This document shows, piece after piece, positions 25,982-44,836 of a DNA stretch of 64,000 bases. The notes beneath the pieces are model-generated. The model did no database searches. It had not been told where the DNA came from and was given only the letters and a program-made list of their open reading frames with translations. The stretch lies in the NCBI GenBank assembly GCA_002238645.1, contig MPMT01000016.1, forward strand, positions 1-64,000, written 5' to 3'. The translations under genes and the position numbers were made by a program. The DNA is from Alphaproteobacteria bacterium bin52. GTDB taxonomy: Bacteria; Pseudomonadota; Alphaproteobacteria; Thalassobaculales; Thalassobaculaceae. How positions within the stretch are numbered: position 1 is the stretch's first letter; the number at the start of each line of letters is the position of its first letter.

Positions 25982-27397
25982 ATGTCCAGACGGATCACGG
26001 TCGAGATCCCGTATGAATCCCTGGACCCGCTGACCATCGGGTCCTGCGACGATCCATCGATGATCTACAGGGAAACCATCTCGGCCGAGGTACCGTGGCG
26101 CAACCTGTGGGCGTGGATCCGGCCCAACGAACCGGCCGCGCTCGGCGACGTGACGGCGGCAACGGCCGCGGCCCTGGAACGGCCGTTCGATGGTCCTCGG
26201 TTCTCCGAACTGCTCGGACCCGACACGTCGCTCGCGATCATCATCGACAATCAGTTCCGGCCGACGCCGGCCTCGCGGATCCTGCCCGCACTTCTTGACG
26301 CGGTCGAACGCCATGGCGTGCGCGACGCCCGGGTGGTCTGCGCCAACGGAAAGATCTTTCCGATGTCGGAGCGTGACACCGAGCAGAAGGTCGGTGTCGA
26401 GACCCTTGCGCGCATGCAGGCGATGGGGATCCCGTTCTACCAGAACGACGACCCGACAAATCCGCAGATGTACAGGTTCGTCGGCATCTCCTCGCGCGGG
26501 ACCCCGGTCTGGCTGCACCGCGAGGTTGCCGACTGCTCCGTGAAGATCACGATCGGCCAGGCCCAGTCCAACCACTGGGGGTACGGCGGTGGTGGCAAGC
26601 TGATCCTGCCCGGCGTTGTCTCCGACGAAACCATCGAGTCCAACCACGGCGCCTTCGTGATGTCGCCCCAGACCCGCTACGGGTCGATGGCCGGCCCGAT
26701 GCGCTCGGACATCGACGAGGTCGCCACCATGTGCGGACTGACCTGCACGCTCAACGTGGTGCTGGACACCGGCGGATCGGTGTGTTTCCTGAACTTCGGC
26801 ACGCACCCTGACGCGCACCGCGAGGCGATCCGGGTCTTCAACTCGATCTACGCCTACCGACGCCCGATGGGCGGTCCGGCCGACATCGCGATCTGTGGTG
26901 TGTTTGCACCCACCGACCACCTGTTCTTCCACACCGGGTGGGGATGCATGTCGGCCGACATGGTTCTGCGCGACGGTGGGGACATGATCTACTGTTCGCC
27001 GAGCCCCGGGGTCGAGACGAGCATCGGCAGCTTTCCGGGGTTTGCGCTGTTCGACGAGATGAAACCATACATGCCGCCGTCGCCGGAGAACATCGAGCGG
27101 CTGGCCCGCGACATCTATAACCGCAGGGTGGGCATGTGGGCCGGATGCATCTGGGCTCCGATCTACGAGGTGATGTCGCGCAAGCACCTGACGGTGGTCA
27201 CCCGCGAGGAAAACCTCGAGCTCGGCCGCGAGATTGGCTTCGAGACCACGACGTCGCTGCAGGGCGCCGTCGATCGGGCGCTGGACCGGCACGGGCCTGA
27301 CGCGAAGATCGTCGTCCTGCCCTATGCGCGCTACCAGATGCCGAACGACGTGATCCGCATGCCGTCAGCCAGGTTCGGTCGCATGGCGGCCGAGTAG
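25982..27397 (+). CDS. LarA-superfamily protein (lactate racemase-like)
   Basis: The protein has 471 residues. The N-terminal DUF2088/LarA domain has the block IDNQFRPTP in place of the usual DHTRPTP. Lys and His of the racemase core align: His198 (NHWG), Lys206 (GGGGKLILPG) and His222 (ESNHGAF). The first catalytic His (AxGLHR) is replaced by ANGKIF, and the His198-Lys206 spacing is two residues shorter than in LarA. LarA uses a nickel-pincer cofactor attached to the Lys. The three lar maturation genes are absent here. It may act on another 2-hydroxy acid or be a non-racemase relative. Confidence 0.8.
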   Translation: MSRRITVEIPYESLDPLTIGSCDDPSMIYRETISAEVPWRNLWAWIRPNEPAALGDVTAATAAALERPFDGPRFSELLGPDTSLAIIIDNQFRPTPASRILPALLDAVERHGVRDARVVCANGKIFPMSERDTEQKVGVETLARMQAMGIPFYQNDDPTNPQMYRFVGISSRGTPVWLHREVADCSVKITIGQAQSNHWGYGGGGKLILPGVVSDETIESNHGAFVMSPQTRYGSMAGPMRSDIDEVATMCGLTCTLNVVLDTGGSVCFLNFGTHPDAHREAIRVFNSIYAYRRPMGGPADIAICGVFAPTDHLFFHTGWGCMSADMVLRDGGDMIYCSPSPGVETSIGSFPGFALFDEMKPYMPPSPENIERLARDIYNRRVGMWAGCIWAPIYEVMSRKHLTVVTREENLELGREIGFETTTSLQGAVDRALDRHGPDAKIVVLPYARYQMPNDVIRMPSARFGRMAAE

Positions 27398-27409: not shown

Positions 27410-28987
27410 CTACGCGACCAGTGCGTTGATCGCCGCGTCGGTCCGGACCACGTCGGCCACGTTCTGCATCGCGTAGTTGATCGAGGCGGCGTGCCAGTCG
27501 GCGTTCATGGTCGAGCAGCTGTCCTCGACCACGACCATCCGGTATCCCTTGTCGGCTCCGGTCCGCGCGGTGTGCTCGATCGACATGTTGGTCCAGGCTC
27601 CGGTTTCGATGATTGTGTCGCGCCCGGTGGCTTTCAGGATGGTCTCGAGCGTGGTGCCTTCCCAGGCGCTCATCCGGTTCTTGGTCACGACGTGATCGCC
27701 TGGCTTCGGCTCCAGGCCGGCAACCGGGGCGACCCCCCAGGTTCCGCGGACCAGCGCGTTTGCAGAGACCAGGTCGTTGAACAGCGGCGCGTTCCGTGTA
27801 ACGCCCGGTGCTCCGGGCTCGACGATGAACCAGACGTGGATCACCGGGATCGCGGCCTGGCGGCAGGCGTCGGCCAGGCGGCGGATATTGGCGACGCAGT
27901 CCTGCTGCCTGCAATGGTCGGGCGCGCCCGACGCGGCGAAGGCGCCGCCGTCCATCACGACATCGTTCTGCATGTCCTGGATCACCAGGACCGCGCGGCG
28001 CGGGTCGAGCCACGCCGCGCCGGTGCCGCCGATGGGTGCCGCACCGAGTGTCCGCCCGCCCGGGCGTGATACCGCGCCGGGACGCGGTCGCATGAAGGGT
28101 TCATCGCGCGGGCCAACCCTGGTGGTGACCGCGTAGAGCGACGTGCTGGCACACATGAACAGGGTGCGCCAGTCCTCGCCTCCCCAGTGCAGGTTGGCGA
28201 CCTGTTCCGGGACCTCGACGGTGCCGATCAGCGTGCCCGCGGGATTGTAGACCCACACCCCGCCGGGCGCGGTAACCCAGATGCTGCCGTTGGCGTCGCA
28301 CTTCATCCCGTCGGGAACGCCGGGCCGCGATCCGTCCCAGATCCCCGAGGCGAAGATGCGTCCGCCGTCCAGAGTGCCGTCGGCTCCGACCTCGTAGACC
28401 CGGATATTGGTCTGGTCGGTGTCGTTGACATAGAGAAGCCGTTCGTTGGGGGAGAAGCACAGGCCGTTCGGCTGGCTGAAGGTATAGCGGTCGACCATGA
28501 GCGACAGCCCTCCGGCAGGGTCGATGCGGTAGATGCCCTGGAAACCGAGTTCCACCGCACGTTCGACGCCGAAGCCGGGCATGCGCCCGTAGGTCGGGTC
28601 GGAGAACCAGATCGATCCGTCGGACTGGACGCAGATGTCGTTCGGACTGTTCAGCTCCTTGCCCTCGAAGTGGCTGGCAAGCACGTCGCGGGTTCCGTCG
28701 GGACGGAACCGGGCCACCGACGAGGTCGCGTGCTCGCAGACCAGCAGGTTGAGATCGACGTCGTAGGTCATCCCGTTGCCCTTGTTCGACGGGCTGGCCA
28801 CCACCTCGACACCCCGGCTGTCCCAGCGCCGGCGGGTATCCGCCGGCATGTCGGAGAACAGCAGGTGGTGCTCCGTCGGATGCCAGATCGGACCCTCGGT
28901 GAAGGTGAAGCCGGTCCCGAGGCGGCTGACCGGCTGAGCGGTATCAAGGATCTCGTGGAAGGACCGGTCGATCGCTTCATGTCCCAT
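27410..28987 (-). CDS. SMP-30/gluconolactonase-isochorismatase-like fusion
   Basis: The protein has 525 residues in two domains. Residues 1-300 form an SMP-30/gluconolactonase beta-propeller (FTEGPIWHP, NSPNDICV, FSDPTYG, QPNGLCFSP, PDGMKCD). Residues 325-525 form an isochorismatase-type fold (AVLVIQDMQND with Asp338, VVTKNRMSAW with Lys436). The usual nucleophilic Cys in TNxCV is Ser469 (TNMSIEHTAR), so it is not a Cys hydrolase; isochorismatases such as PhzD also lack this Cys. Its ATG at 28987 follows AGGGGG and overlaps the amidohydrolase by 11 bases. It could open a lactone and hydrolyse a second bond in the same pathway. Confidence 0.85.
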   Translation of the reverse strand: MGHEAIDRSFHEILDTAQPVSRLGTGFTFTEGPIWHPTEHHLLFSDMPADTRRRWDSRGVEVVASPSNKGNGMTYDVDLNLLVCEHATSSVARFRPDGTRDVLASHFEGKELNSPNDICVQSDGSIWFSDPTYGRMPGFGVERAVELGFQGIYRIDPAGGLSLMVDRYTFSQPNGLCFSPNERLLYVNDTDQTNIRVYEVGADGTLDGGRIFASGIWDGSRPGVPDGMKCDANGSIWVTAPGGVWVYNPAGTLIGTVEVPEQVANLHWGGEDWRTLFMCASTSLYAVTTRVGPRDEPFMRPRPGAVSRPGGRTLGAAPIGGTGAAWLDPRRAVLVIQDMQNDVVMDGGAFAASGAPDHCRQQDCVANIRRLADACRQAAIPVIHVWFIVEPGAPGVTRNAPLFNDLVSANALVRGTWGVAPVAGLEPKPGDHVVTKNRMSAWEGTTLETILKATGRDTIIETGAWTNMSIEHTARTGADKGYRMVVVEDSCSTMNADWHAASINYAMQNVADVVRTDAAINALVA

Positions 28988-29891
28988 TGTCATTCCCCCT
29001 GCTGCGGTTGGGTGCCGGCCGGTACACCCGAGCGGCCGTGTCGTGGAAGATCGCCCGGCGCGCGGCGGCCGACAGGCCGGACGTCGCGGCGCGGTAGGCG
29101 TCGAGCAGCGGGCCGTAGCCGGTCCACAGCTTCTCGATCGGGAAGTTGGAGCCGAACATGGCGCGCCCGGCGCCGAAGATGTCGAGTGTCTGGCCGACGA
29201 CCTCGGCCACATGCTGCGGATCGTTGCGGTGGATGAAGGTGCCGAGACCGGACAGCTTGCAGACCATGTTCGGAAACTCGCCAAGCCGGCGCATGCCATC
29301 GAGCCATTCCGCACGGCCGGCGGCGGACCGGTCCTCGGGCATGCCGGCGTGCTGAAGGATGAAGGTGACACCGGGGCACGAGCGCACCAGTTCGGCGGCG
29401 TGGTGCATCTGTCCGGGGAACACCTGGAGGTCGAAACACCAGCCGTACTCCTCCAGCCGGGCCACGCTGCGCCGGACGACGGGGTCGCAGACGAGGTCGG
29501 CCCGCGCCGCAAACCGGTAGGACGGGTTCTCGTGCCAGTGCATCTGCTGGCGAATTCCGCGCATGAGCGGAATGCGCCCAAGCGCGCGCAGCCGGTCCGC
29601 GGCGTCGGGTGCCGTCAGATCGGTACACGCGACGATGGCGTGCGGCCAGCCGTGCGCATCCGCCACCGACTGTACCCACGCGGCTTCGGCGCGTTCCCTG
29701 CCCGGCGCCCAGTTGGCCTGGACGTAGACCGAACCGGTCACGCCGCAGCCGGAACAGTCCTGCAGGTATTCGGTGACCGGGTAGTCTCTCCTGATGGCCT
29801 CGTACGGCCCGAAGATCCGCGGCTGCATCGGCCCGAGCAGCCACGGCAGATCGTCGCGGCGCCAGATGTGGTGGTGTGCGTCGATGATCAC
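28977..29891 (-). CDS. Amidohydrolase family 2 (lactonase-like) enzyme
   Basis: The protein has 304 residues of the TIM-barrel amidohydrolase-2 family. The metal-binding HxH is in IIDAHHHIW at the start, with further barrel residues such as ILQHAGMPED and MFGSNFPIEKLW. Members are lactonases (for example L-fuconolactonase), decarboxylases or hydrolases of small rings. The GTG start at 29891 overlaps coxE by GTGA, and its 3' end overlaps the next gene. Its place in the operon suggests work on the product of the molybdenum enzyme. Confidence 0.88.
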   Translation of the reverse strand: MIIDAHHHIWRRDDLPWLLGPMQPRIFGPYEAIRRDYPVTEYLQDCSGCGVTGSVYVQANWAPGRERAEAAWVQSVADAHGWPHAIVACTDLTAPDAADRLRALGRIPLMRGIRQQMHWHENPSYRFAARADLVCDPVVRRSVARLEEYGWCFDLQVFPGQMHHAAELVRSCPGVTFILQHAGMPEDRSAAGRAEWLDGMRRLGEFPNMVCKLSGLGTFIHRNDPQHVAEVVGQTLDIFGAGRAMFGSNFPIEKLWTGYGPLLDAYRAATSGLSAAARRAIFHDTAARVYRPAPNRSRGNDNGT

Positions 29892-30991
29892 CGTTCGTAC
29901 CGGGCGTGCCCGATCACCCCGCGGCAGAGTGCGGCCGCGCTGTCGGCCTGACCGAGGTGATCGATGAAGGGAGCCACCGATTGCAGGGCCCGTGTCTCGG
30001 GGCGCCAGTCATCGCCGGTCGCAAGCGGCGTCAGCCACACCAGGCGCCAGGCCAGCTGTGACAGCGAGCGCACCGCGGTTGTCATCGCCGTGTGGTCGCC
30101 CCGTTCAAGGCCGTCGGAGATAATGACCACCAGGGCGCCGCGGGCGAACCCGGCGAACCTCGGAATGGACAGGAACGCTGCGAGCGAGTCGCCGAGCCGG
30201 GTTCCCCCGTCCCAGTCGACCACCCGGCTGGAAACCCGGGAGAGTGCGGCGTCGCGGTGACGATGGCGCAAGGGTCGGCTGACGCGGGTGAGCCGGGTGC
30301 CGACGGTGAAGATCTCGACGTGGCGGGCCACCTGCGCCAGGCTATGGGCGAAGCCGAGGCAGCTGTCGGTTCGCGCCTTCATCGATCCGGATATGTCGAT
30401 GAGCAGCAGGATTCGGCGCTGGACCGGCTTGCGCCTGCGGTGGGCCAGCACCAGTGCCTCGCCGTCGAAGCGGACCGCGTGGCGCAGGGTGCGGCGCAGG
30501 TCGGGAAACCTGCCGCGGTGATGCGCCACCCGACGGTGCGAACGCCGCCTCGGCAGCATGTCGGGTGCCCGGCGCCGGAAAACGGCCAGCGCTTCTTCCT
30601 CGCCCGCCCGGCCAAGCCGGCGCCTTGCCAGCAACTCGAGTCCGGTGGCGTCGGTTCCGGACTCGGAGGGCTCGTCGGGCTGCTCCCCGGGCCCGCCGTC
30701 GACATCCTCGCCGACGGGTATCTCGTCATCCTGACCGGACGGACCCGGACCCTCGAGTGCGTGGCCGAAGAAGTGGGCGCGAAACAGGGCGTCGAAGTCC
30801 CCGTGCCGCTCCGGCGACGGCGCCAGGGTCGCACGGGCGGCCCGGTGGATCGCCGTCATCCCGCTCGGGCCCAGAAGCCCGACGGCGCGAATGAAATCCA
30901 GACCCTGTTCGGGTGCCACCGCAAACCGGTTTCGGCGCAGAAGATCGACGAATGCAAGCAGCGGCCGGATCGGGCCGGGCAGGGCGGTCAT
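29888..30991 (-). CDS. coxE: CoxE-like VWA domain protein
   Basis: The protein has 367 residues. The C-terminal VWA domain carries the MIDAS motif DISGSMKAR with Thr and Asp in the later loops (SDGLERGD). CoxE works with the MoxR-type ATPase CoxD to mature the active site of CO dehydrogenase-type molybdenum hydroxylases. I chose ATG at 30991, since the upstream 52 codons are Arg-rich non-coding-like. It lies five bases after coxD. Confidence 0.85.
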   Translation of the reverse strand: MTALPGPIRPLLAFVDLLRRNRFAVAPEQGLDFIRAVGLLGPSGMTAIHRAARATLAPSPERHGDFDALFRAHFFGHALEGPGPSGQDDEIPVGEDVDGGPGEQPDEPSESGTDATGLELLARRRLGRAGEEEALAVFRRRAPDMLPRRRSHRRVAHHRGRFPDLRRTLRHAVRFDGEALVLAHRRRKPVQRRILLLIDISGSMKARTDSCLGFAHSLAQVARHVEIFTVGTRLTRVSRPLRHRHRDAALSRVSSRVVDWDGGTRLGDSLAAFLSIPRFAGFARGALVVIISDGLERGDHTAMTTAVRSLSQLAWRLVWLTPLATGDDWRPETRALQSVAPFIDHLGQADSAAALCRGVIGHARYER

Positions 30992-30996
30992 GCCGG

Positions 30997-31878
30997 TCAC
31001 GCCGCGACCCCGGTCACGATCTGCCCGAGCCTGGGGCGCACGAACTCGAGGTCGTCCTGGTCCTTGAGCGCGACGCCAATCGCACGCACGAACGCATCCG
31101 GCCACGCAAGCCCGTGCTGTCCGAGCAGGGTCGCGGCCTCGGCCCATTCCACGGTCTCGGCGACTCCGGGAGGCTTGGCCAGCGGTTCGGTGCGGAGCCG
31201 GCCGATCGCGGCCACGATGCGGTCCGCGGTCTCACGGGCGACGGAACTGGCCCGGACCATCACGATTGCCGCTTCCCGGGCCGGATCGGGATAGTCGATC
31301 CAGTGGTAGACGCAGCGCCGGCGCAGCGCCTCGTGCAGTTCGCGCGTGCGGTTCGAGGTCAGGACCACCACCGGGCGGTGGGCGGCGCGCACCGTGCCGC
31401 GCTCGGGAATGGAGATCTGGAAATCCGACAGGAACTCGAGGAGGAACGCCTCGAACTCGTGGTCGGAGCGATCAATCTCGTCGATGAGCAGGAAGCCGTT
31501 GGCGCCGGCCTGCAGGGCATCGAGCATCGGCCGGGCGATCAGGAACTCGTCCCGGTAGATGTTGACATAGGCGTCGCCGGCCTGCCGTATCGCCAGCATC
31601 TGCCGAGGGTAGTTCCACTCGTAGAGCGCGGCTGCGGAGTCGATGCCCTCGTAGCACTGGAGCCTGATCAGCCGGCGGCCGAGCACCGATGCCAGCGCCT
31701 TGGCGGCCTCCGTTTTCCCCACTCCCGGGGAGCCCTCGAGCAGCAGCGGCTTGCCCAGTGCAAGCGCGAGGTAGGCTGCGGTCGACAGGCCGCTGTCGGA
31801 GAGATACTGCGCCGCACCAAAGGCCGCATCGAGCTCCTCGGGCGAGCCGATTCCGTCAATCCTGGGCGTGACCGGCAT
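30997..31878 (-). CDS. coxD: CoxD-like MoxR-family AAA ATPase
   Basis: The protein has 293 residues. Walker A is GSPGVGKTE, Walker B FLLIDEIDRSD, with sensor and arginine-finger regions (LTSNRTRELHEALRRRC). MoxR/CoxD ATPases insert the sulfur and copper or otherwise activate Cox-type enzymes. The gene starts the coxDE-amidohydrolase-fusion run. The large subunits it should serve are 5 kb away, beyond an exporter and a TnpB remnant. Confidence 0.88.
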   Translation of the reverse strand: MPVTPRIDGIGSPEELDAAFGAAQYLSDSGLSTAAYLALALGKPLLLEGSPGVGKTEAAKALASVLGRRLIRLQCYEGIDSAAALYEWNYPRQMLAIRQAGDAYVNIYRDEFLIARPMLDALQAGANGFLLIDEIDRSDHEFEAFLLEFLSDFQISIPERGTVRAAHRPVVVLTSNRTRELHEALRRRCVYHWIDYPDPAREAAIVMVRASSVARETADRIVAAIGRLRTEPLAKPPGVAETVEWAEAATLLGQHGLAWPDAFVRAIGVALKDQDDLEFVRPRLGQIVTGVAA

Positions 31879-31951
31879 TGGCTGGCATCCCTGTCGAACC
31901 TGCGTCCAGTCCCCGATCCTACGCCCAAACCGACGAAGATTATGGGAATTA

Positions 31952-32010
31952 TATCGAACAGTGCCAACATCCCACCGCCAGCATCAGATGGTTTCGCGTC
32001 TCTCGAACCG
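31952..32010 (+). repeat. Direct repeat, left copy (TnpB-element end)
   Basis: This segment (TATCGAACAGTGCCAACATC ... TTTCGCGTCTC) aligns base for base with 50047-50105, with roughly 75-80 percent identity by eye and the same orientation. Both copies sit beside TnpB remnants, so they are probably end sequences of one IS605-like element. Confidence 0.65.
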
Positions 32011-32093
32011 GATGCTCACTGCGGGAGTGGGCTGACAGCACCGACTTCATGCTCTTGTGCCTGATATTATCATGTATTGTATCTGTACTGTGC

Positions 32094-32540
32094 ATGCACG
32101 CCTCCAGGCCCGATCCCGTCACCTGCCGCCAGGTCACATACCGGCTTCTGCCACGCAAGACGTCGACATGGCGGTGGCTGGAACGGGTGCTCGAGGAACA
32201 GCGCCAGCTCTATGATGCCGCACTGCAGGAACGGGTCGACTGCTGGCACCAGGAAGGAAAGAGCCTCACCTGGCGCGACCAGTTCAAGTCGCTCACCAGG
32301 TGCCGGCGGGAAATCCCCGGCATGGAGGATGTCGCGGTCGCGATCCAGCGCGGGACGCTGAAACGTCTCGACGATGCGATGCAGGGCTTCTTCAGGCACA
32401 CGAAGGCGGGGCTCGGCGGTTTCCCCCGTTTCAAGGGGCGCCGGCACTGGAACAGCATCTCGATCATCGCCGGCGTCAGGTTGAGCGGCAACGCCCTGCA
32501 GATCCCGCGCTACGGGCAGATGACGGTCCGCCGGCGCGAT
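32094..32540 (+). mobile_element. TnpB (IS605/IS607-type) N-terminal remnant
   Basis: About 148 codons from ATG at 32094 (TYRLLPRKTSTWRWLERVLEEQ ... FKGRRHWNSISII ... YGQMTVRRR) match the N-terminal half of TnpB. Sequence after about 32540 is unrelated, and the RuvC and zinc-finger parts are missing. No TnpA is nearby. This remnant is not expected to be active. Confidence 0.8.
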
Positions 32541-32764
32541 AGAACCCGCGCCCGGCTGGCGAAGACAACGCGCCGGTGCGCCGCGACCGGGCCGCATGAC
32601 GCACAGTGCGCAGGAGGTCCGCCAGGGAACCCGGCCGGAATGCCGGCGCCCGGCCAAGCCGGGAAATCCCCGCCATCGGCCGCGCAGCCCTGCGCCGCAT
32701 GCCCCGGGGGCACACGGTGCTGCGCGGTGCCTGCCGCCTGCCCGGTGTTCGGGTCGTGTGCCGG

Positions 32765-34615
32765 TCAGGTCCCGGAGGCGAGGTCGTCGAACGAGGCGTG
32801 GTTCATGCGGTTGAGCATGCTGTAGAGCCCATCGCCCGCGGCTAGCTCGCCGTGGGTGCCGGATTCCACGATCCGGCCTTCGCGCAGCACGATGATACGG
32901 TCGGCGTGCCGGATCGTCGCCAGCCTGTGGGCGATGATCAGCGCGGTGCGTCCCTCGAGCAGCCGGGACAGCGCGCGCTGGATCTCCAGCTCGGTGTAGC
33001 TGTCAACGTTCGCTGTCGCCTCGTCGAGAATCAGGATCGGCGAATCGGCCACCAGAGCGCGGGCAAAGCTCAGCATCTGGCGCTGGCCCATCGACAGGTT
33101 GATGCCGCGCTGGTCGAGTATGGTCTCGTAGCCGTCGGCGAACCGGGCGATGAAGTCATGGGCTCCCACCGCGCGGGCGGCCGCGACCACTTCACTGTCC
33201 TCGGCGCCGCTCGCGTAGCGGATGTTCTCGAGAATGCTGCCGGAGAACAGGTACGGTTCCTGGAGGACCACCGAGATGTGCCGACCGAGCGAGTTCTGGG
33301 TGACGTCGCGCACGTCCATGCCGCCGACCAGCACCTGGCCGCTCCATACATCGTAGAACCGGTGGGCGAGCGAGAGGATGCTGGTCTTGCCCGACCCGGT
33401 GGGGCCAACCAGCGCCACGGTTTCTCCCTGTCGGGCCTCGAAACTGATGTCGGTGAGGACCGGTTCGCCCGCGCGGTAGCCGAAGGTGACGTGGCGGAAC
33501 TCGATCGAGCCCGGCGTGCCCAGCAGCGACCGGGCATTCGGTCGGTCCCTGACGTCGATCGGGACATCGAGGACCTCGAAGATGCGCTGGCCCGCGGCCA
33601 TGGCGCGTTGCATGATGCTGTACTGGATGGTGAGCGAGCGGATCGGGTCGAAGAACCGCTGCACGTAGAAGAGGAACGCGACCATCACGCCCACGTCCAG
33701 CGATCCGTCGAGGACCAGACTGCCCCCGTACACCACGATGACAGCCATCGCCAGCCCGGTCAGGCCGTCGACGAGGGGAATCAGGACGTTGACGAACCTC
33801 GACGCGACACAGTGGGCCCGGACGTTTTCGCGCGCCAGTTCACGGAACAATCCATAGTTCAGGTCCTCGCGCCCGAGTTCCTGGACTGCCCGGACCCCGT
33901 GCACGCTTTCCGCCAGTGCGCTGTTGGTGGTGCTGCTGGTCTCGCGCGCGTGGATGAAGGCCTTCCGGGCCCGGGGCAGCCAGATGATGCGGACCGCAAA
34001 CAGAACCGGCATCACCATGAGGGTGAGCGCGCCGAGCCGCGGGTCCAGCACCAGCAGCACCACGACGATGCCCAGCAGCAGCACCAGGTCGCCGATGGCA
34101 AAGATCGAGGATTCGAGGAATTCCTGCAGGGCCTGGACATCGCCCTGGAGCCTCGACATCAGCCGCCCGATTTCGGTCTGGTCCATGAAGGCCATGGAAA
34201 CGAACTGCAGGTGCCGGTACATGGCGCGGCGAAGGTCGAACATGAGATGGCCCGCGACGCGGCCGACCAGCTGTTCCTGGACCAGGTTGGCCACGAAGTT
34301 GACGATGACCACGGCGAGGAAACCCAGCACGATGATGAGCAGCAGGTCCTCGCCTGCCGCGCCGAGCACCAGGGCCTTGTCGATCGCGGTGCGGATCAGC
34401 AGCGGGATCGCAAGCTGCGTGCCGGTAAACGCCAGCACGCCGAATACTCCGAACAGGAGCTGTCGGCGGTACGGCGCCAGGTAACCCGCGATCCGCCCGA
34501 GTACCCAGCGGTCGAATGCCTTTCCGAACAGCACCTCCTCGACCGAGATCTGCGATCCGACCACGGCAAGCGGCCTGGTCCGGCGGGGTTCCGCCGCATT
34601 TTCGCCGGCCGTCAT
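32765..34615 (-). CDS. ABC exporter half-transporter, catalytic-Walker-B partner
   Basis: The protein has 616 residues: a six-helix membrane domain (residues 50-330) and an ATPase domain. Walker A is GPTGSGKTS and Walker B ILILDEATANVD with the catalytic Glu, but the signature reads LSMGQRQ rather than LSGGQ. It overlaps the preceding half-transporter by ATGA. Together they have the layout of heterodimeric exporters with one degenerate ATP site. The gene ends beside the TnpB remnant. Confidence 0.88.
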   Translation of the reverse strand: MTAGENAAEPRRTRPLAVVGSQISVEEVLFGKAFDRWVLGRIAGYLAPYRRQLLFGVFGVLAFTGTQLAIPLLIRTAIDKALVLGAAGEDLLLIIVLGFLAVVIVNFVANLVQEQLVGRVAGHLMFDLRRAMYRHLQFVSMAFMDQTEIGRLMSRLQGDVQALQEFLESSIFAIGDLVLLLGIVVVLLVLDPRLGALTLMVMPVLFAVRIIWLPRARKAFIHARETSSTTNSALAESVHGVRAVQELGREDLNYGLFRELARENVRAHCVASRFVNVLIPLVDGLTGLAMAVIVVYGGSLVLDGSLDVGVMVAFLFYVQRFFDPIRSLTIQYSIMQRAMAAGQRIFEVLDVPIDVRDRPNARSLLGTPGSIEFRHVTFGYRAGEPVLTDISFEARQGETVALVGPTGSGKTSILSLAHRFYDVWSGQVLVGGMDVRDVTQNSLGRHISVVLQEPYLFSGSILENIRYASGAEDSEVVAAARAVGAHDFIARFADGYETILDQRGINLSMGQRQMLSFARALVADSPILILDEATANVDSYTELEIQRALSRLLEGRTALIIAHRLATIRHADRIIVLREGRIVESGTHGELAAGDGLYSMLNRMNHASFDDLASGT

Positions 34616-36471
34616 GGCGAGGTGTCCGGTGACGCGGTCTGCAGCCGGTGCAGTTCGGCGAACCGGCCGCCGAGTGCGACAAGCTCCTGGCGGCTGCCGC
34701 GCTCGACGATCCGGCCATGTTCGAGGAACAGGATCATGTCGGCGTGGCGCAGGGAGCTCAGCCGGTGGGCAATGATGATCACCGCGCGGGTCCGTGAGAT
34801 GTCGGCGATGGCATCCTGCAGCCGCGCTTCGGTGGCGGCGTCGACGGCGGCGGTCGAGTCATCGAGTACCAGCACTGCGCTGTCAGGCAGGATGCTGCGC
34901 GCGATCGACATGCGCTGGCGCTGGCCTCCGGACAGCGAAAGGCCGCGTTCGCCCACCAGGGTGTCGTAGCCGGTCGACAGGCTCATGATGTGGTCGTGCA
35001 GCTGGGCGACGGCCGCCGAACGTTCGATCTTGGTGCTCTCGGCCCACGGATTACCGTAGGCCACGTTGTGGCTGATGCTGGCGGTAAACAGGAACGCGTC
35101 CTGCTGGATGATGCTGACCGCACGGCGCAGGGACGTAAGCGAGATCGTGCGAATGTCCTGTCCGTCGATGGTGATCCGACCGCCGGTCACGTCGTAGTAG
35201 CGGCCTACGAGCTGGGCTATGGTGCTCTTGCCGCTTCCCGGCGGGCCAACGATGCCGACGATCTGTCCCGGCCGGGCCTCGAAGCTGACGTCCGACAGGG
35301 TGCGGGCGTCCGCCGCGACGGCCGGATAGGAAAAGTCGACGTCTTCGTACCTGAGCACGCCTTTTGAGACCTCAAGGTCCCGCGCCTCGGGCGCATCGGA
35401 GATCGAGGGTGCCACGTCGAGCACGCTGAACAGCCGGCCACCGCAGGTCGATGCCCGGGCCACCGAGTTCGACATCCATCCGATCTGGCGAATCGGCATC
35501 TGCAGGATCGCCATGAAGGCAAGAAACTGGGTGAGCTGACCCAGCGTCAGCGTTCCCTCGATGGTCTTGACCCCTCCGATCCACAGCACCGCCCCCATGG
35601 TGAGGAAGAAGGCGAAGTTCATCTGCGCGGTGTTGCGCACGAACAGCTCGACGCGCCGGTGCGAAATTCGCAGGGCTCTCCTGGAGATCCGGTCGAACCG
35701 GGCGAGTTCGTGGGCCTGGGCGGCAAAGGCGCGCACCACCCGGATACCACCGAGGTTTTCCTCCATCGCCCGGGTGAGCACCGACAGCTCGTTCTGCAGC
35801 TGCAGCCAGATGTCGCGCAGCCGGATGCGCGAGATCGATGCCGAGACCCCGACGAACGGCACGAAGCCGAACGCGACCAGCGCAAGGACCTGGTCTATCC
35901 GGAACAGGATGACGAACCCGCCCCCGATCAAGATGCCGAGCAGGATCACGCGGAGCATGCCGGTCGTCACGAACATGCGGACACCCTCGATGTCGAGTAT
36001 GCCGCGGGTCATCAGGTCTCCGGTATGGACCTGGTCGTGCCAGGACAGGCTCAGAGTCTGCAGCTTGCGGTAATAGGCGAGCCGTAGATGATGGGCGATG
36101 AAGTGGCCGACCACCTCGCCCTGGTAGTTCTGCACCATGGTGAAGATGCCGCGCAGCAGGCTGACCGCGACCAGCAGCATCGCGGTCAGCAGCAACGCGT
36201 CCACGGCTTCGGTTCGAACACCGGTTGCCGCCGCACCGGCGAGCAGGCCCTGGGCCTGGTCGACCGCGCGTCCGAGGAACTGCGGCACGAACAGCTGGAA
36301 GCCGGCTCCGAGTGCCGTTGCCACCATGGCAAGCGCCATGCGGTACGGGTGGCGGAAGGCGAGTTCCGAAATTCGCCACAGCACCCGTCCGTCAAGCCGC
36401 GAGACGTGCGGGAGGGTGTGCGCCGTCGGGTCGGTGTCAACCCGCCCGTTGCTCGAGACCGTGCTGCTCAT
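34612..36471 (-). CDS. ABC exporter half-transporter, degenerate-Walker-B partner
   Basis: The protein has about 619 residues. Its membrane domain is followed by an ATPase with Walker A GPPGSGKST and a canonical LSGGQRQRMSIAR signature. Walker B reads AVLVLDDSTAAVD, with Asp in place of the catalytic Glu. It pairs with the partner whose Walker B is intact and whose signature is altered, the TM287/288 or BmrCD pattern. I chose ATG at 36471. It starts 58 bases after the last molybdenum-hydroxylase gene and is probably part of that operon, perhaps exporting product or substrate. Confidence 0.88.
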   Translation of the reverse strand: MSSTVSSNGRVDTDPTAHTLPHVSRLDGRVLWRISELAFRHPYRMALAMVATALGAGFQLFVPQFLGRAVDQAQGLLAGAAATGVRTEAVDALLLTAMLLVAVSLLRGIFTMVQNYQGEVVGHFIAHHLRLAYYRKLQTLSLSWHDQVHTGDLMTRGILDIEGVRMFVTTGMLRVILLGILIGGGFVILFRIDQVLALVAFGFVPFVGVSASISRIRLRDIWLQLQNELSVLTRAMEENLGGIRVVRAFAAQAHELARFDRISRRALRISHRRVELFVRNTAQMNFAFFLTMGAVLWIGGVKTIEGTLTLGQLTQFLAFMAILQMPIRQIGWMSNSVARASTCGGRLFSVLDVAPSISDAPEARDLEVSKGVLRYEDVDFSYPAVAADARTLSDVSFEARPGQIVGIVGPPGSGKSTIAQLVGRYYDVTGGRITIDGQDIRTISLTSLRRAVSIIQQDAFLFTASISHNVAYGNPWAESTKIERSAAVAQLHDHIMSLSTGYDTLVGERGLSLSGGQRQRMSIARSILPDSAVLVLDDSTAAVDAATEARLQDAIADISRTRAVIIIAHRLSSLRHADMILFLEHGRIVERGSRQELVALGGRFAELHRLQTASPDTSP

Positions 36472-36529
36472 GATCGGCGCAGAATATAGGTGATGACGCC
36501 GTGATCGGAAACCGGCGTTGGCCGCCGGG

Positions 36530-37552
36530 TCAGCGCCGCGGACCCGGACGGGCACCTCCGTTCGCCTTCAGGCCCCGCAGTACCTTCTCTGGCGTGATCG
36601 GCAGTGCGGTAACCCGCACGCCCACGGCGTTGAACACCGCATTGGCGATTGCCGGCATGATCGGGTTCGCACACATCTCGCCCGGACCCTTGCCGCCAAA
36701 CGGACCATCCGGCGCCGGGCGCTCGAGAATCGCGATATCGTGCCGGGCAATGTCGCCCGGTCCCGGCATCGTGTATTGCGAGAAGTCGACCGGTCCGTGC
36801 GACCGGTCCGGGTAGCGCGGCTCGGTGGTTTCGTACAGCGCGTGGCTCAGCCCCATCCACGCTCCGCCGACCAGCTGCTGCTCAACCAGGCGCGGGTTGA
36901 TGGCGCGTCCGACCTCGTAGGCCGAGTTGACCTGCTCCACTGTGACCTCGCCGGTCTCGTCATCGACCATGACATCCGCCACCAGGGCGGCGTGGGCATA
37001 GCAGGAGACCGGCGTCATCTCGCCGGTTTCCGGTTCCACCTCGGAGAGCGGGATGAGGAAGATGCCGCGGCCGGCCACGGTCTTCCCGTGTCTGAACTGT
37101 GCCGCCTGGCATGCGTCCCCGGTGGTGATGCTGCGGTCGGGCGCGCCGCGCAAATGAATGTTGCCGCGCCCGTCGGTCTCCAGGTCGTCGGCATTGACCT
37201 CGAGTTCCTCGGCAGCCGCTTCCAGCATGATGGCGCGGGCTTCCTTTGCGGCAACGATGACCGCGTTCCCGACCCGGTGGGTGCCACGCGAGGCGAACGA
37301 GCCCATGCAGTGGGGACCGGTGTCGCTGTCCGCGGTGTCGACGTACACGTCCTCGACCGGGACCCCCAGGGTCTCGGCGGCGATCTGCCGGGTCACGGAC
37401 TTCATGCCCTGGCCGAGGTCGATCGACGACAGGGCGATCGCGAACTTGCCATCGGGGCTCGAATGCACCAGCGCCTGGCTGGGGTCTCCGCCCAGGTTCA
37501 TGCCGATCGGGTAGTTGATGGAGGCGAATCCGCGTCCCCTGTGGATCGTCAT
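36530..37552 (-). CDS. Molybdenum hydroxylase large subunit, C-terminal part
   Basis: The protein has 340 residues and is the second half of the xanthine-dehydrogenase/CoxL family. It covers the C-terminal molybdopterin-cytosine-dinucleotide binding domain (FASINYPIGMNLGGDPSQAL, GQGMKSVTRQIAAETLGV, ADSDTGPHCMGSFASRGTHRVGNA). The catalytic Glu is in GGKGPGEMCAN. It starts at ATG 37552 with GAGGAG nine bases upstream, two bases after the stop of the N-terminal part, in another frame. A properly placed ribosome site argues for a true two-gene subunit, as in nicotinate dehydrogenase. Confidence 0.85.
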   Translation of the reverse strand: MTIHRGRGFASINYPIGMNLGGDPSQALVHSSPDGKFAIALSSIDLGQGMKSVTRQIAAETLGVPVEDVYVDTADSDTGPHCMGSFASRGTHRVGNAVIVAAKEARAIMLEAAAEELEVNADDLETDGRGNIHLRGAPDRSITTGDACQAAQFRHGKTVAGRGIFLIPLSEVEPETGEMTPVSCYAHAALVADVMVDDETGEVTVEQVNSAYEVGRAINPRLVEQQLVGGAWMGLSHALYETTEPRYPDRSHGPVDFSQYTMPGPGDIARHDIAILERPAPDGPFGGKGPGEMCANPIMPAIANAVFNAVGVRVTALPITPEKVLRGLKANGGARPGPRR

Positions 37553-37554
37553 GA

Positions 37555-39261
37555 TCAGCGTCTCCTCAGCCCGGCGTTGGTGGCAAACCGGCTGTAGCGA
37601 GCCGGTGCCGGCGCGCGCGGCGCGTGCGGCGGCCCTTCGGTACGCGGCGGTGGCTGTTCGGTGCGCGGCGGCTGCGGAACCGTTCCCGGCTGCCAGGCGG
37701 GCGCGGCCGCCGGGTGGGCGTAGTTCGCCGCGCTCCCGGATCGGGCGGGAGTCCCGGTGGCGGCGGTGTCCTGTCCGGGTGTCGGCGCGATGGTCCGCCG
37801 CTCGCCGCGGCCGGTTCGCCCCGCGCGGCGCTCGCCGATGCGCCCGTCCCGGTCGGTGACCGTCGGCGGGATCGCGGCACGCTCGCCGCCGCCGTCGCGG
37901 GTCGATGCCATGGCGCCGAAGGCATCGCCGATCGGCCAGCCGGCCTTCTGCGCGGCGACCTGGGCACACTCGATCAGCGCGCAGTTCTTGGCGATCCGGC
38001 GGTGCGGTTTCATGTCGCCGTCCCGATAGGCGTTCAGGATCCGCAGCTCCACCGGGTCCATGCCGATCTCGTGCGCTACCACGTCCATGTGGCTCTCGAT
38101 CGCGAAGTCCACCCCGGTGATGCCAAAGCCGCGCATTGCGGTCGCCGGGGTCCGGTTGGTGAACACGCACAGGATGTCGGAGGAGACGTTGGGGATGGTG
38201 TAGGGACCGGGCAGGTGGCCCGTCGCCTTGATGATGGCGTAGCTCGACAACCGGGTGTAGGCACCGGCATCGAAATAGCCGGTGAACCTGCGCGCCACGA
38301 TCCGCCCGTCGTTCATCACCCCGTCGGTCAGATACCAGCGTTCGGCGCCGCGCGGAGCGCCGACCTGCATCTCCTCCGCCCTGTCCCATGCGAAGCGGAC
38401 GGGCCGTCCGGTCAGCATGCAGCCGAGCAGAGCCATCGGCTCGACGATGCTGTCCACCTTGCCCCCGAAGCCGCCCCCGACGGTGCCGCCGACGAAGTGC
38501 AGCCGGTTCGAGGGCAGGTCCAGGAGTTTTGATGCGGTCGCGAGAGAGAAGAACAGGGCCTGGGTGCTGGTGTAGCAGACGAAGCGCCCGTTGGTTTCAG
38601 GTGCCGCGATGGCGCCGTTGGTCTCGAGCGGCGCCTGTTCGATCGGCGACATCTCGTAGCAGCCCTCGATAACCCGGTCGGCCGAGGCGAGCGCCGACTC
38701 GACGTCGCCGAACCGCAGCTTCTGGTGATCGTAGGTGTCGTGGTAGTCGAAGCTGTTGTTGGGGTAGGTGTCATTGACAACCGGAGCCCCCGGCGCGAGC
38801 GCCTCCTCGACGTCGAACACGCAGGGCAGTTCCTCCCAGTTCACCCGGACCTCGGCAACCGCGTCGTTGGCGCGGGCCTCGCTGTCGGCGATCACCGCGG
38901 CCACGGGCTCGCCGCGATAGGCGACCTTGCGCGTCGACAGTAGCGGTTCGTCGTCGCGCCCGAAGTCCATCAGGCCGAGCAGGGTGTTGAGATTGTTGGG
39001 CACGTCGGCGCCGGTCAGCACCCGGACCACTCCGGGCATGCGTTCGGCCCGCGACGTGTCGATTGACCGGATCCGGGCGTGGTGATGCGGGCTGCGCACA
39101 CAACGCATGTGCAGCAGTCCCTCGAACAGGTGATCGTCGTAGAACGGCGACCGGCCGGTGACGTGGCCGAGAATGTCCTGGCGCCGGGTCGGCTTGCCGA
39201 CCTCGACCAGGTCATCGTCGCGTTCGTCGGCAAACAGGTCCTTGCGAAACTCGACCGTCAT
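37555..39261 (-). CDS. Molybdenum hydroxylase large subunit, N-terminal part
   Basis: The protein has 568 residues. Residues 1-448 match the first half of CoxL/XdhB-like subunits: aldehyde-oxidase a/b hammerhead domain, then VGGGFGGKVDS for the pterin site, and TAMRGFGITG where CO dehydrogenase has AYRCSFR, so it is not a form I CO dehydrogenase. Residues 449-568 are a Pro-, Arg- and Ala-rich disordered tail that ends at TGA. The tail sits where the linker to the C-terminal half would be. It overlaps coxS by ATGA. Substrate is probably a ring compound or aldehyde. Confidence 0.85.
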   Translation of the reverse strand: MTVEFRKDLFADERDDDLVEVGKPTRRQDILGHVTGRSPFYDDHLFEGLLHMRCVRSPHHHARIRSIDTSRAERMPGVVRVLTGADVPNNLNTLLGLMDFGRDDEPLLSTRKVAYRGEPVAAVIADSEARANDAVAEVRVNWEELPCVFDVEEALAPGAPVVNDTYPNNSFDYHDTYDHQKLRFGDVESALASADRVIEGCYEMSPIEQAPLETNGAIAAPETNGRFVCYTSTQALFFSLATASKLLDLPSNRLHFVGGTVGGGFGGKVDSIVEPMALLGCMLTGRPVRFAWDRAEEMQVGAPRGAERWYLTDGVMNDGRIVARRFTGYFDAGAYTRLSSYAIIKATGHLPGPYTIPNVSSDILCVFTNRTPATAMRGFGITGVDFAIESHMDVVAHEIGMDPVELRILNAYRDGDMKPHRRIAKNCALIECAQVAAQKAGWPIGDAFGAMASTRDGGGERAAIPPTVTDRDGRIGERRAGRTGRGERRTIAPTPGQDTAATGTPARSGSAANYAHPAAAPAWQPGTVPQPPRTEQPPPRTEGPPHAPRAPAPARYSRFATNAGLRRR

Positions 39262-39737
39262 GACCGGCCTCCTCCACCTTCGCCCGCAACTTCGAGCACC
39301 GCGGCAATGATCGGTTCGTAGCCGGTGCACCGGCAGATGTTACCCGAGAGCGCGTGCACGACCTGGTCCCGGTCGGGGTGCGGGGTACTCTCGAGCAGTG
39401 CGGTGGCCGCCATCAGCATGCCCGGGGTACAGAACCCGCACTGGGCCGCAAAGTGGGCCATGAAGGCCTCCTGCAGCGGGTGACTGCCGTCGCCCGGCAG
39501 ACCGCCGGCGGTCGCGACCGAGCGCCCCTCGACCGTCTCGGCAAGGGTCAGGCAGGACAGGCCCGGCACGCCGTCGATCAGCACGGTACAGGCGCCGCAG
39601 CCCCCCTGGGCGCACCCTCGCTTCGCGGTGAGATCCCCGACACTGCGACGCAGCACGTCCAGCAGGTTGGCGCCATCCTCGACGAAAACCGCCTTCTCGG
39701 CTCCGTTCAGCCGGAACTGCAGGGGCTTCTGCGCCAT
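39258..39737 (-). CDS. coxS: Molybdenum hydroxylase [2Fe-2S] subunit
   Basis: The protein has 159 residues and carries two 2Fe-2S clusters: the plant-type ferredoxin motif CAQGGCGACTVLIDG with the later Cys, and the helical domain with CGFCTPGM and CRCTGYE. It transfers electrons from the molybdenum site to the flavin subunit. It abuts coxM (TAG directly followed by ATG) and overlaps the large subunit. Confidence 0.92.
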   Translation of the reverse strand: MAQKPLQFRLNGAEKAVFVEDGANLLDVLRRSVGDLTAKRGCAQGGCGACTVLIDGVPGLSCLTLAETVEGRSVATAGGLPGDGSHPLQEAFMAHFAAQCGFCTPGMLMAATALLESTPHPDRDQVVHALSGNICRCTGYEPIIAAVLEVAGEGGGGRS

Positions 39738-40550
39738 CTAGTCCTCCCCGTCTTCCAGCAGCAACCGGCGCAGGTGCACCGGTGCAACCTCGGCGCGGTA
39801 CCAGCCTGACGCCAGTGCGTCATCCGGCGGGTCAAGCCCCCGGGCAGCCGCGGCGAGTGCGCCGGCAATCCCGGTCGCATCCGGCCGGCATCCCTCAAGC
39901 GCGCGTTCGGCCTCCGCAGCCCTGAGCGGCCGCGGCGCCATTGCGCTCCAGGCGATGCGCGCACCGGAGATCCGTCCCGAGACCACAGGGATGCTGGCGG
40001 CGACGGAGAGAACGGGTGCGCCGGTCGGCCGGACCCGGGTGACCTTGCGGAACCTGAAGGTTCCGGCAGCGGGGCGGGTGAAACTGACCGACCGGACGAC
40101 CTGGGAGCCGGCCGTGCCGGTGTCCCGGAGCAGGTCGGCGAGCGGGCGGGACGGTCCGCCGGCGCATGCGGCCTCCGCGTCGAGCGCGAGCAGGGCCGCC
40201 GCCATGTCGCCGTAGGGGTGCGGAGCAAACAGGTTGCCTCCGACCGTCGCCTGGGCCTGCAGCGCCGGCCCGCCGATGGTGCGAGCCACCGGGTGCAGGA
40301 AGGCGAGCGCCGGATCGGCAAGCACCGCGCGCATGGTCACGCCGGCGCCCAGGGTGATCGACGGGCCGGACGACGTGATCCGCTTCAGGTCGGGGTCGGT
40401 GGTGCGGACAAGTATGCCCACCTCGTCCGCACCCTCGTTGACCGCGCGCATCAGCAGGGTGCCGCCGCCGAAGTAGCGGGCCGAACGGTCGCGCGCCACG
40501 GCCTCGGCGGCCTCGGCAACGGTCGGAACACAGTGGACGGTCACGGTCAT
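39738..40550 (-). CDS. coxM: Molybdenum hydroxylase FAD subunit
   Basis: The protein has about 270 residues with the FAD-binding PCMH fold: RYFGGGTLLMRAVNEG for the FAD pyrophosphate, TVGGNLFAPHPYGDM for the isoalloxazine loop, and a C-terminal CO_deh_flav_C domain. It passes electrons to the respiratory chain or a soluble acceptor. The ATG at 40550 follows an unused frame to 40625. It lies ten bases after an SRPBCC gene and overlaps nothing else. Confidence 0.9.
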   Translation of the reverse strand: MTVTVHCVPTVAEAAEAVARDRSARYFGGGTLLMRAVNEGADEVGILVRTTDPDLKRITSSGPSITLGAGVTMRAVLADPALAFLHPVARTIGGPALQAQATVGGNLFAPHPYGDMAAALLALDAEAACAGGPSRPLADLLRDTGTAGSQVVRSVSFTRPAAGTFRFRKVTRVRPTGAPVLSVAASIPVVSGRISGARIAWSAMAPRPLRAAEAERALEGCRPDATGIAGALAAAARGLDPPDDALASGWYRAEVAPVHLRRLLLEDGED

Positions 40551-40560
40551 GGTACCGGCC

Positions 40561-41007
40561 TCATGCCCGGGCGCCGGCAAGATGGGAGCGGATTGCGTCG
40601 AACCCGGCCTGGTAGATCGCGTCACCCACCAGGGCGGCCAGCGCCGCAGCCTCGCCCGGTCTGGTGTCGAAACGGCCGCGCCAGTGCCAGTAGGTGCGAT
40701 CCCCGTCGGTCACCGGGAGCAGCCGCACGCGCGAGACATAGTTGAATATCGGGATCGGGGTATCAAGCAAGCAGTAACTGTACGCGGTCTCGATGTCGGA
40801 CAGTTCCAGCAGCTGTTCGCGCAGCACTGATCCGTCCTCGAGCCGGAACCGGCGCACGCAGCCCACCGTGTCCGCCGGCCTGCCCCGTTCGATCTGGCTT
40901 TCGGCGATGGCAGGGTGCCAGCGGTCGTGGCCGTTGAAGTCGCGCAGCACCGTCCACGCCTCGTCGATGGGGTGTTCGAGAATGGTGCTGCGTTCGACCG
41001 TAACCAT
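40561..41007 (-). CDS. SRPBCC-family protein B (CoxG-like)
   Basis: The protein has 148 residues of the START-like polyketide-cyclase fold (ILEHPIDEAWTVLRDFNGHDRWHPAIAES ... VRRFRLEDGSVLREQLLELSD). The fold binds hydrophobic ligands. It is a paralogue of the next upstream gene. In cox operons an SRPBCC protein, CoxG, anchors the enzyme to the membrane; this protein is similar in fold but shorter. It could bind the enzyme or its substrate. Confidence 0.85.
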   Translation of the reverse strand: MVTVERSTILEHPIDEAWTVLRDFNGHDRWHPAIAESQIERGRPADTVGCVRRFRLEDGSVLREQLLELSDIETAYSYCLLDTPIPIFNYVSRVRLLPVTDGDRTYWHWRGRFDTRPGEAAALAALVGDAIYQAGFDAIRSHLAGARA

Positions 41008-41013
41008 GATCGG

Positions 41014-41460
41014 TCATCCTGCGCCGAAATGCCGCTTCAGTGCGTCGAATCCGGTCTGGAACACGTCGCGGGAAATCCCGTTGACCAGATCCTCCTCGAC
41101 CTCCGGCTCGCAGGCGAACTCCGCCGACCATTCGACGAAACAGCGATCGCCGTCGCTCACCGGGGTGAGCCTGAGCGTGGCCACGTAGTCGGCAAGCGGC
41201 ATGGGGGAGTCGAGGATCGAGTAGGTGCACACCAGGTCGTAGTCGCTCAGGGCGAGCAGCTGTTCACGGATCTGGTCGCCGTTCTGCAGCCGGAAGTTGC
41301 GGATGCACCCCACCCGGTCCGCCGGTTCACCCTCCTCGATGTGGCTCTCCGCAATCCTCGGGTGCCAGCGCGGCAGGCCGTTGAAGTCGCGGACACGCTC
41401 CCATACCCGTTGCGCCGGCGCATCGACCACGCTGGAGACGTAGACCCGGGCCATGGTCAC
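41014..41460 (-). CDS. SRPBCC-family protein A (tandem paralogue)
   Basis: The protein has 148 residues of the same fold as its downstream neighbour (VDAPAQRVWERVRDFNGLPRWHPRIAESHIEEGEPADRVGC). The two share blocks such as DFNG, WHPxIAES and EQLLxLSD, so they arose by duplication. The GTG start at 41460 overlaps the flotillin stop; ATG at 41454 is an alternative. The pair may bind the same hydrophobic substrate or act as a heterodimer. Confidence 0.85.
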   Translation of the reverse strand: MTMARVYVSSVVDAPAQRVWERVRDFNGLPRWHPRIAESHIEEGEPADRVGCIRNFRLQNGDQIREQLLALSDYDLVCTYSILDSPMPLADYVATLRLTPVSDGDRCFVEWSAEFACEPEVEEDLVNGISRDVFQTGFDALKRHFGAG

Positions 41461-44003: not shown

Positions 44004-44836
44004 TGCGTGTCTCCCCGCCCGATGCACATGAATGCCCGGGTCTGCTCGGTCAGTGCCTGTTCCACCGGCAGGCGTTCCATCGATGACGCACCGTAGAAAC
44101 CGTGGCAGTGAGTGGTGTTTCGCATCATGTAGTCGGCGTCCTCCGGCGTTGCGATCGGACCGCCGTGAACCAGCACCAGGATGTCGGGCCTGACCGCGAG
44201 CGCCGCCTCGGCCCAGCTGTCAACCAGGACCGGGCAGTCGGAGCGGTCGAGCGCCGTGCGTGCGCCGATGTCACCGCCGGTGGTCAGTCCGAGATGGCAG
44301 ACGATGATGTCGGCGCCGGCCTCGGCCATCGCCCGCGCGTCGTCGCGCGAGAACACGTAGGGCGTGGTCAGCAGGTCCTTCGCGGCGGCGCGCGCGATCA
44401 TGTTGACCTCGAGGTCGTAGGACATCCCTGTTTCTTCGAGATTGGCCCGGAACGTCCCGTCGATCAGCCCCACCGTCGGGAAGTTCTGCACTCCCGCGAA
44501 GCCGGTCTGCTTCAGCCGGTCGAGCCACGGGTCCATCAGCCGGAACGGGTCGGTGCCGTTGACACCCGCAAGCACAGGGGTGCGGCGAACCACCGGAAGC
44601 ACTTCGGATGCCATCTCGAGCACGATCGCGTTCGCGTCTCCGTAAGCCAGCATGCCGGCGAGCGACCCGCGCCCTGCCATGCGGTAGCGGCCCGAATTGT
44701 AGATCACGATGAGATCGATTCCGCCGGCTTCCTGACAGCGCGCCGAAAGACCGGTCCCGGCACCGCCGCCGACGATCGCTTCCCCGCGCGCCGTCTTGGC
44801 ACGCAGACCGGCCATGATCACGTCCCGCCCGGTCAC
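44000..44836 (-). CDS. Phosphoenolpyruvate hydrolase-family TIM-barrel protein (Tm-1 C-terminal type)
   Basis: The protein has 278 residues of a TIM barrel found beside UPF0261/Tm-1-like proteins: [28 protein letters not shown] at the start and [22 protein letters not shown] later. In tomato Tm-1 this barrel is the C-terminal domain of the same polypeptide as the ATP-binding domain. Here it is separate but overlaps that domain's gene by ATGA. Its reaction is not established; the family name comes from annotation tradition. Confidence 0.85.

Follow-up and report, generated by a model that had tools for sequence, protein, structure and literature searches.

The gene at positions 27410 to 28987 of the window, the 64,000-nucleotide stretch of DNA analyzed here, joins an SMP-30/gluconolactonase domain to an isochorismatase-fold domain that has Asp and Lys of the superfamily's triad and Ser at the position of the nucleophilic Cys. 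This Asp-Lys-Ser set is conserved whether the two domains are fused or split, and the gene lies in an operon with a molybdenum (Mo) hydroxylase. We interpret it, with about even confidence, as a conserved bifunctional enzyme that closes a Mo-hydroxylase catabolic operon and combines a putative metal lactonase with an Asp/Lys acid-base domain. A broader reading, which we advance a little more tentatively, is that it represents a class of Asp-Lys-Ser enzymes on the isochorismatase fold that work without Cys. Coupled to a lactonase, such an enzyme would act late in a catabolic pathway that has not been described and that begins with a Mo-hydroxylase whose catalytic subunit is divided.

Each of the two folds is already known, and so, separately, is the lack of the Cys. 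In the open-access literature searched, we found neither the Asp-Lys-Ser clade nor its SMP-30 fusion, the operon, or a named pathway for the operon, and no paper contained both "isochorismatase" and "SMP-30"; a clade with Ser fixed and Asp and Lys retained is not among the types in the literature surveyed. Here, nature retains, with Asp and Lys intact, the Cys-to-Ser exchange that enzymologists use to kill this class, and the mainly alphaproteobacterial Ser family is a direct test of isochorismatase-fold chemistry without cysteine. The strictly conserved operon is a concrete, knockout-ready set of genes with which to look for a new catabolic pathway.

Gene and domain architecture

The coordinates given by a first-pass annotation of this DNA, 27410 to 28987, were correct, and the gene is encoded by the minus strand, with its ATG at 28987 and its stop codon ending at 27410; on the plus strand, the frame set by these coordinates is broken by a stop. 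Translation gives a 525-amino-acid product in which two hydrolase folds are joined in one chain, as the annotation had proposed. They are an SGL (SMP-30) domain at residues 29 to 280 (28148 to 28903, minus strand; Pfam E value, 4.8e-49) and an isochorismatase-fold domain at residues 333 to 517 (27437 to 27991, minus strand; Pfam Isochorismatase E value, 9e-46), and both Pfam scores are far above the cutoffs. Asp338 (27974 to 27976), Lys436 (27680 to 27682), and Ser469 (27581 to 27583, codon TCG), all on the minus strand, are exactly where they had been described, with Ser469 at the Cys-nucleophile position in the alignment. A purine-rich stretch, gcaggggg, precedes the start of the fusion, which overlaps the upstream amidohydrolase gene by 11 nucleotides (nt); these features fit a translationally coupled operon gene.

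The full-chain AlphaFold model has a mean pLDDT of 87.1 and a pTM of 0.59, with residues 303 to 324 under 50, and a model of the C-terminal domain alone has a mean pLDDT of 89.0 and a pTM of 0.88. Residues 303 to 324 (28016 to 28081, minus strand) form a probably flexible linker, and the mutual placement of the two domains in the full-chain model is uncertain. The low-confidence linker suggests tethering of the two domains and not one rigid channel.

The nearest structure in the PDB to the N-terminal domain is Deinococcus 3e5z (Z score, 41.4; 1.9 Å over 287 residues). This protein belongs to the SMP-30/gluconolactonase/LRE family, together with Xanthomonas XC5397 (3dr2), RPA3624, and the Caulobacter xylonolactonase, and the likeness extends from the propeller fold to four residues (E31, N116, N174, and D226) that we take to be putative metal or active-site residues and that are invariant in all 82 rows of the N-domain alignment. 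In contrast to these family members, the protein analyzed here carries a second enzyme fold. A lactonase-type propeller is also naturally fused to a partner, but a different one, in Deinococcus radiodurans, where a Cu/Zn-SOD is reported to be joined to a beta-propeller lactonase (PMC12362111).

A conserved operon with a Mo-hydroxylase

The Mo-hydroxylase operon, which was absent from the first-pass annotation, is the stronger clue to function. Gene calls are based on open reading frames, made without a gene finder, and their starts are approximate. Upstream of the fusion, on the same (minus) strand, are genes for an amidohydrolase (28977 to 29891; Pfam Amidohydro_2, under the NCBIfam L-fuconolactonase cutoff), a CoxE-like VWA protein (29888 to 31147; Pfam; the listed frame probably starts too far upstream), and a MoxR-type AAA ATPase (30997 to 31878; Pfam, with the MoxR name taken from the annotation of a Yoonia plasmid). 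The catalytic subunit of the Mo-hydroxylase is divided between two minus-strand genes, one for the C-terminal half (36530 to 37552; MoCoBD_2) and one for the N-terminal half (37555 to 39330; Ald_Xan_dh_C and MoCoBD_1), which in the window ends in a proline- and arginine-rich tail. The [2Fe-2S] subunit (39258 to 39737) and the FAD subunit (39738 to 40625) follow, both assigned by Pfam and both on the minus strand. The scores of the Mo subunit with NCBIfam CO dehydrogenase models were far below the cutoffs, and those with xanthine dehydrogenase and 4-hydroxybenzoyl-CoA reductase models were higher and also under the cutoffs. The enzyme is a Mo-hydroxylase of the xanthine dehydrogenase type with a divided catalytic subunit.

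Farther upstream, again on the minus strand and assigned by Pfam unless noted, are an SRPBCC protein (40561 to 41007; Polyketide_cyc2, CoxG-like), a second SRPBCC-type protein placed in the same sequence cluster by clustering (41014 to 41460), a flotillin/SPFH protein (41457 to 44027), a PEP-hydrolase-like protein (44000 to 44836; PF09370), an ABC ATPase fused to UPF0261 (Tm-1-like) domains (44833 to 47154), a branched-chain-amino-acid-type ABC ATPase (47060 to 47941), and two BPD_transp_2 permeases (47848 to 48900 and 48904 to 49920).

Clustering of the open reading frames from 80 loci and the window gave a recurrent order of FAD subunit, [2Fe-2S] subunit, N-terminal half, and C-terminal half of the Mo subunit, and then MoxR, VWA, amidohydrolase, a metallo-beta-lactamase (MBL)-fold lactonase-like protein, and the fusion. 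The same gene order is seen in the Yoonia plasmid's own annotation, with two SDRs and a fumarylacetoacetate-hydrolase-family gene as downstream extras. For counts across the operon, we used the 53 of 81 loci, window included, that extend at least 7.9 kb upstream, leaving out the 28 shorter ones. In a protein search, VWA, MoxR, and both halves of the Mo subunit were on the same strand in 53 of 53 loci, and among these same loci, the [2Fe-2S] subunit was found in 51, the FAD subunit in 50, and the amidohydrolase and the MBL protein in 49 each. For 65 loci, the sequence extends at least 3.5 kb upstream; both the amidohydrolase and the MBL protein were present in 54 of these, the MBL protein alone in 6, the amidohydrolase alone in 4 (including the window), and neither in 1. 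The best MBL matches elsewhere in the genome of the window, whose locus has no MBL gene, are 34% and 29% identical. At least one SRPBCC gene and a flotillin-size gene are common, farther upstream, to the eight long loci examined (window included), and two SRPBCC matches, flotillin, the PEP-hydrolase-like protein, and ABC-UPF0261 were present in 6 of 6 fused loci tested besides the window (L141, L142, L122, L126, L089, and L090).

The presence of three lactonase-type hydrolases beside a Mo-hydroxylase suggests a pathway in which ring oxidation is followed by ring opening. Under this proposal, the metal-dependent SMP-30 domain would open a lactone that arises after the Mo-hydroxylase step, and the lactonase product or a nearby intermediate would be the substrate of the tethered isochorismatase-fold domain.

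Some features of the neighborhood are particular to the window. Unlike the other loci, it has two ABC exporter genes (32765 to 36555, minus strand) between the Mo subunit and MoxR, and a plus-strand frame beside them (31878 to 32825) looks transposon-like by eye and has no Pfam match. A LarA-like gene of the nickel-pincer cofactor racemase family (25982 to 27397, plus strand) converges on the fusion; we rejected it as a member of the conserved unit because it is present in 1 of 81 loci, the window itself. LarC is encoded elsewhere in the genome of the window, on contig C8, close to a motif that looks LarE-like by eye, and a larC-larE-larB-like group lies near one split pair (L137; LarC by Pfam, the others by eye).

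Fused and split forms of the enzyme

A scan of genomes returned 219 relatives, of which the best 80 were kept; these matched nearly the whole query at 62 to 73% identity. The recurrence of the full-length form in 80 of 80 kept loci indicates that the fusion is not due to chance. In a class sample of 385 genomes, drawn evenly yet related to one another, the SMP-30/isochorismatase pair was found in 10 at a match threshold of E 1e-100, as a fusion in 6 (including the genome of the window) and as split genes in 4. All four split genomes belong to one family (f157); the domains are parted by a stop codon in L133 and L134 and are adjoining pieces in L135 and L136. The Ser was kept in all four split forms, and the clade that carries it has support of 100/98 in the C-domain tree. 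In this tree, the fused rows form a clade that excludes the split pairs (95/98), in disagreement with the N-domain tree, in which the split rows are nested within the fused ones (97/94), so that the two trees point in different directions on whether the split form is ancestral or derived.

Four loci considered as further fusions of the C-terminal domain (L103, L104, L107, and L115) were rejected because, by eye, their frames run upstream of a plausible internal start. An SMP-30 protein that stands alone, encoded on a Paraburkholderia plasmid (L091), shares about 61% identity with the N-terminal domain; the stretch examined around it has no isochorismatase match, and intradiol dioxygenase and maleylacetate reductase genes lie nearby.

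A close homologue of the C-terminal half of the Mo subunit was found in 8 of the 385 class genomes, all 8 among the 10 with the SMP-30/isochorismatase pair (6 fused and 2 split); the Fisher P value of 4e-15 for this co-occurrence is overstated because the genomes share ancestry. In the two split genomes with a Mo-subunit homologue, it is located on other contigs. The other two split genomes (G467 and G726) have no close homologue at the threshold used, so that the association with the operon has exceptions, and in the stretches read beside split pairs, we found no match to Mo-operon genes save an amidohydrolase in L139.

We propose that the fusion holds two steps together. The adjacent split genes and the operon are compatible with the earlier suggestion that these steps follow one another on a single compound. 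Alternatively, the fusion could provide coexpression only, with the domains serving unrelated steps and joined because they were operon neighbors. The existence of split adjacent genes, the low-confidence linker, and the conflict between the domain trees all agree with this explanation, which we nevertheless consider somewhat unlikely, as the fusion is retained in every Mo-operon-type locus read across a broad, mainly alphaproteobacterial range.

Conservation of Ser469

Across the window and the best 80 of the 219 relatives, D338 and K436 never vary, and 80 of the 81 sequences have Ser at position 469. The sole exception, L045, has Ala469, which indicates that the Ser may not be essential; it sits among near relatives with Ser, and its Ala may be a recent change or an assembly error. 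The alignment also held L002, a stand-alone lactonase without the C-terminal domain and hence with a gap at position 469. Adding loci from other sources gave 91 rows, some of them from genomes present in two collections, and merging of identical sequences left 88 distinct C-domains. The first-pass annotation had named Cys at position 469 in close relatives, marking the Ser as a strain-specific mutation, as the finding that would count against it. We looked for such relatives and rejected that explanation, since position 469 is Ser in 87, Ala in 1, and Cys in 0 of the 88 distinct sequences. Among the residues present in the 91 rows, D338 and K436 have no exception, and 36 C-domain residues are invariant, including D338, Q340, K436, E471, and H472, as is the GAWTN stretch at positions 463 to 467. 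A domain in decay would not be expected to show such a pattern.

In a phylum sample of 398 genomes, 42 had C-domain matches at E 1e-15; 11 of these, including that of the window's own genome, are at least 68% identical with open frames of at least 522 amino acids, and at the next match, identity drops to about 35%. Among the matches returned as loci and two from the window's own genome, the next relatives outside the Ser family are 25 to 38% identical and have C, G, A, V, or, once, S at the site; the lone Ser, in L105, is accompanied by His in place of the Lys. Loss of the Cys is thus common across the superfamily. Two isochorismatase-fold proteins (L104 and L113) have His at the Asp and the Lys positions alike and Val at the Cys position, and they represent another cysteine-free lineage.

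Predicted chemistry of the isochorismatase-fold domain

Both the profile (E 9e-46) and the fold (Z 29.8) place the C-terminal domain in the PF00857 isochorismatase-like superfamily; of the Asp-Lys-Cys triad, Asp and Lys are present and the Cys nucleophile is absent. The best match in sequence and fold is 3kl2 (Z 29.8; 1.6 Å over 200 residues; E 2.5e-27), a putative isochorismatase from Streptomyces avermitilis that, unlike the C-terminal domain, stands alone and has Cys at the position of Ser469. Ser469 also aligns with the nucleophile Cys of RutB. The fold Z scores were 26.8 for RutB, 25.5 for BiuH, 25.0 for TrtA, 24.5 for YecD, 24.1 for NicF, 23.0 for PhzD, and 21.9 for EntB. The domain thus shares with RutB, BiuH, and TrtA the Asp and Lys of the triad, the nucleophile loop, and a fold match of Z 25 to 27, but has Ser where they have the Cys nucleophile, and its scores with the NCBIfam models for RutB (66.4 versus a cutoff of 377.95 bits) and BiuH (58.3 versus 370 bits) are far below the cutoffs.

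The statement of the first-pass annotation that PhzD-type isochorismatases also lack this Cys is correct. EntB, VibB, and PhzD retain Asp and Lys and likewise lack the Cys, but Gly, not Ser, is reported at its position (YecD Gly145 and EntB Gly156 [PMC12553813]; Gly156 in PhzD and VibB [PMC12210187]). By fold score, moreover, the domain lies somewhat nearer the Cys amidohydrolases RutB, BiuH, and TrtA (Z 25 to 27) than PhzD and EntB (Z 22 to 23), so isochorismatase-like chemistry is an analogy. EntB also has a Gln that stabilizes the substrate (Gln79). EntB, PhzD, and VibB are reported to use a catalytic Asp on vinyl-ether substrates (PMC12553813, PMC12210187), and a Gly145-to-Cys change in YecD gained some gamma-lactamase activity (PMC12553813), indicating that the residue at the Cys site decides which chemistry is open to the fold.

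Most likely, in our analysis, the C-terminal domain is still catalytic and works without the covalent thioester on which the Cys amidohydrolases rely. With Asp and Lys kept and Cys replaced by Ser, the simplest interpretation is acid-base chemistry in which no such thioester forms. Asp338, charge-paired with Lys436, would be the general acid/base, as in EntB/PhzD-type chemistry, and Ser469 would be a hydrogen-bonding or water-positioning group; a role for Ser469 as an alkoxide nucleophile on an activated ester is less likely.

In the strong form of that last idea, which we regard as improbable, the domain would be a serine hydrolase on a Cys-hydrolase fold, with D338 and K436 activating the Ser469 hydroxyl for attack on an activated ester, lactone, or carbamate. 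The conservation of Ser469, the retained Asp-Lys pair and loop aligned with the family nucleophile loop, and a fold close to that of the covalent amidohydrolases are all compatible with it. However, the BiuH Cys175Ser (PMC5806882) and TrtA Cys162Ser (PMC7948467) variants are reported to be inactive, possibly because of the higher pKa of Ser in the case of TrtA (PMC7948467), which argues against an ordinary Cys-type amidase in the C-terminal domain, and L045 has Ala469.

The same variants, described as binding substrate without turnover (PMC5806882, PMC7948467), could instead be taken as models of a pseudoenzyme, in which the C-terminal domain is a noncatalytic module that binds substrate or a partner, or oligomerizes, on behalf of the lactonase. 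The G, A, or V found instead of Cys in distant relatives would agree with such a role. Isochorismatase-fold proteins are often oligomers, another point in its favor. The first-pass annotation had left open whether the domain acts by a different mechanism or is structural; the structural option is disfavored by the invariance of Asp, Lys, and the active-site loop in 91 rows, and the domain also occurs as a gene of its own and hence is not a mere fused appendage. We consider a pseudoenzyme unlikely and prefer the acid-base reading.

It is very improbable that the domain is an ordinary Cys amidohydrolase with another cysteine, such as Cys491, as its nucleophile: C491 is present in every one of the 87 fused rows but is replaced by Thr in 4 of 4 split forms, and YecD has Cys at the EDAC site that matches C491. 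We rejected a compensating cysteine more generally because the split forms do not retain C491, C359, or C375, and among the 91 aligned rows no other cysteine is conserved throughout the clade. Where C359 and C375 would be, the split forms carry Ala or Gly, and some of the fused forms carry Ala.
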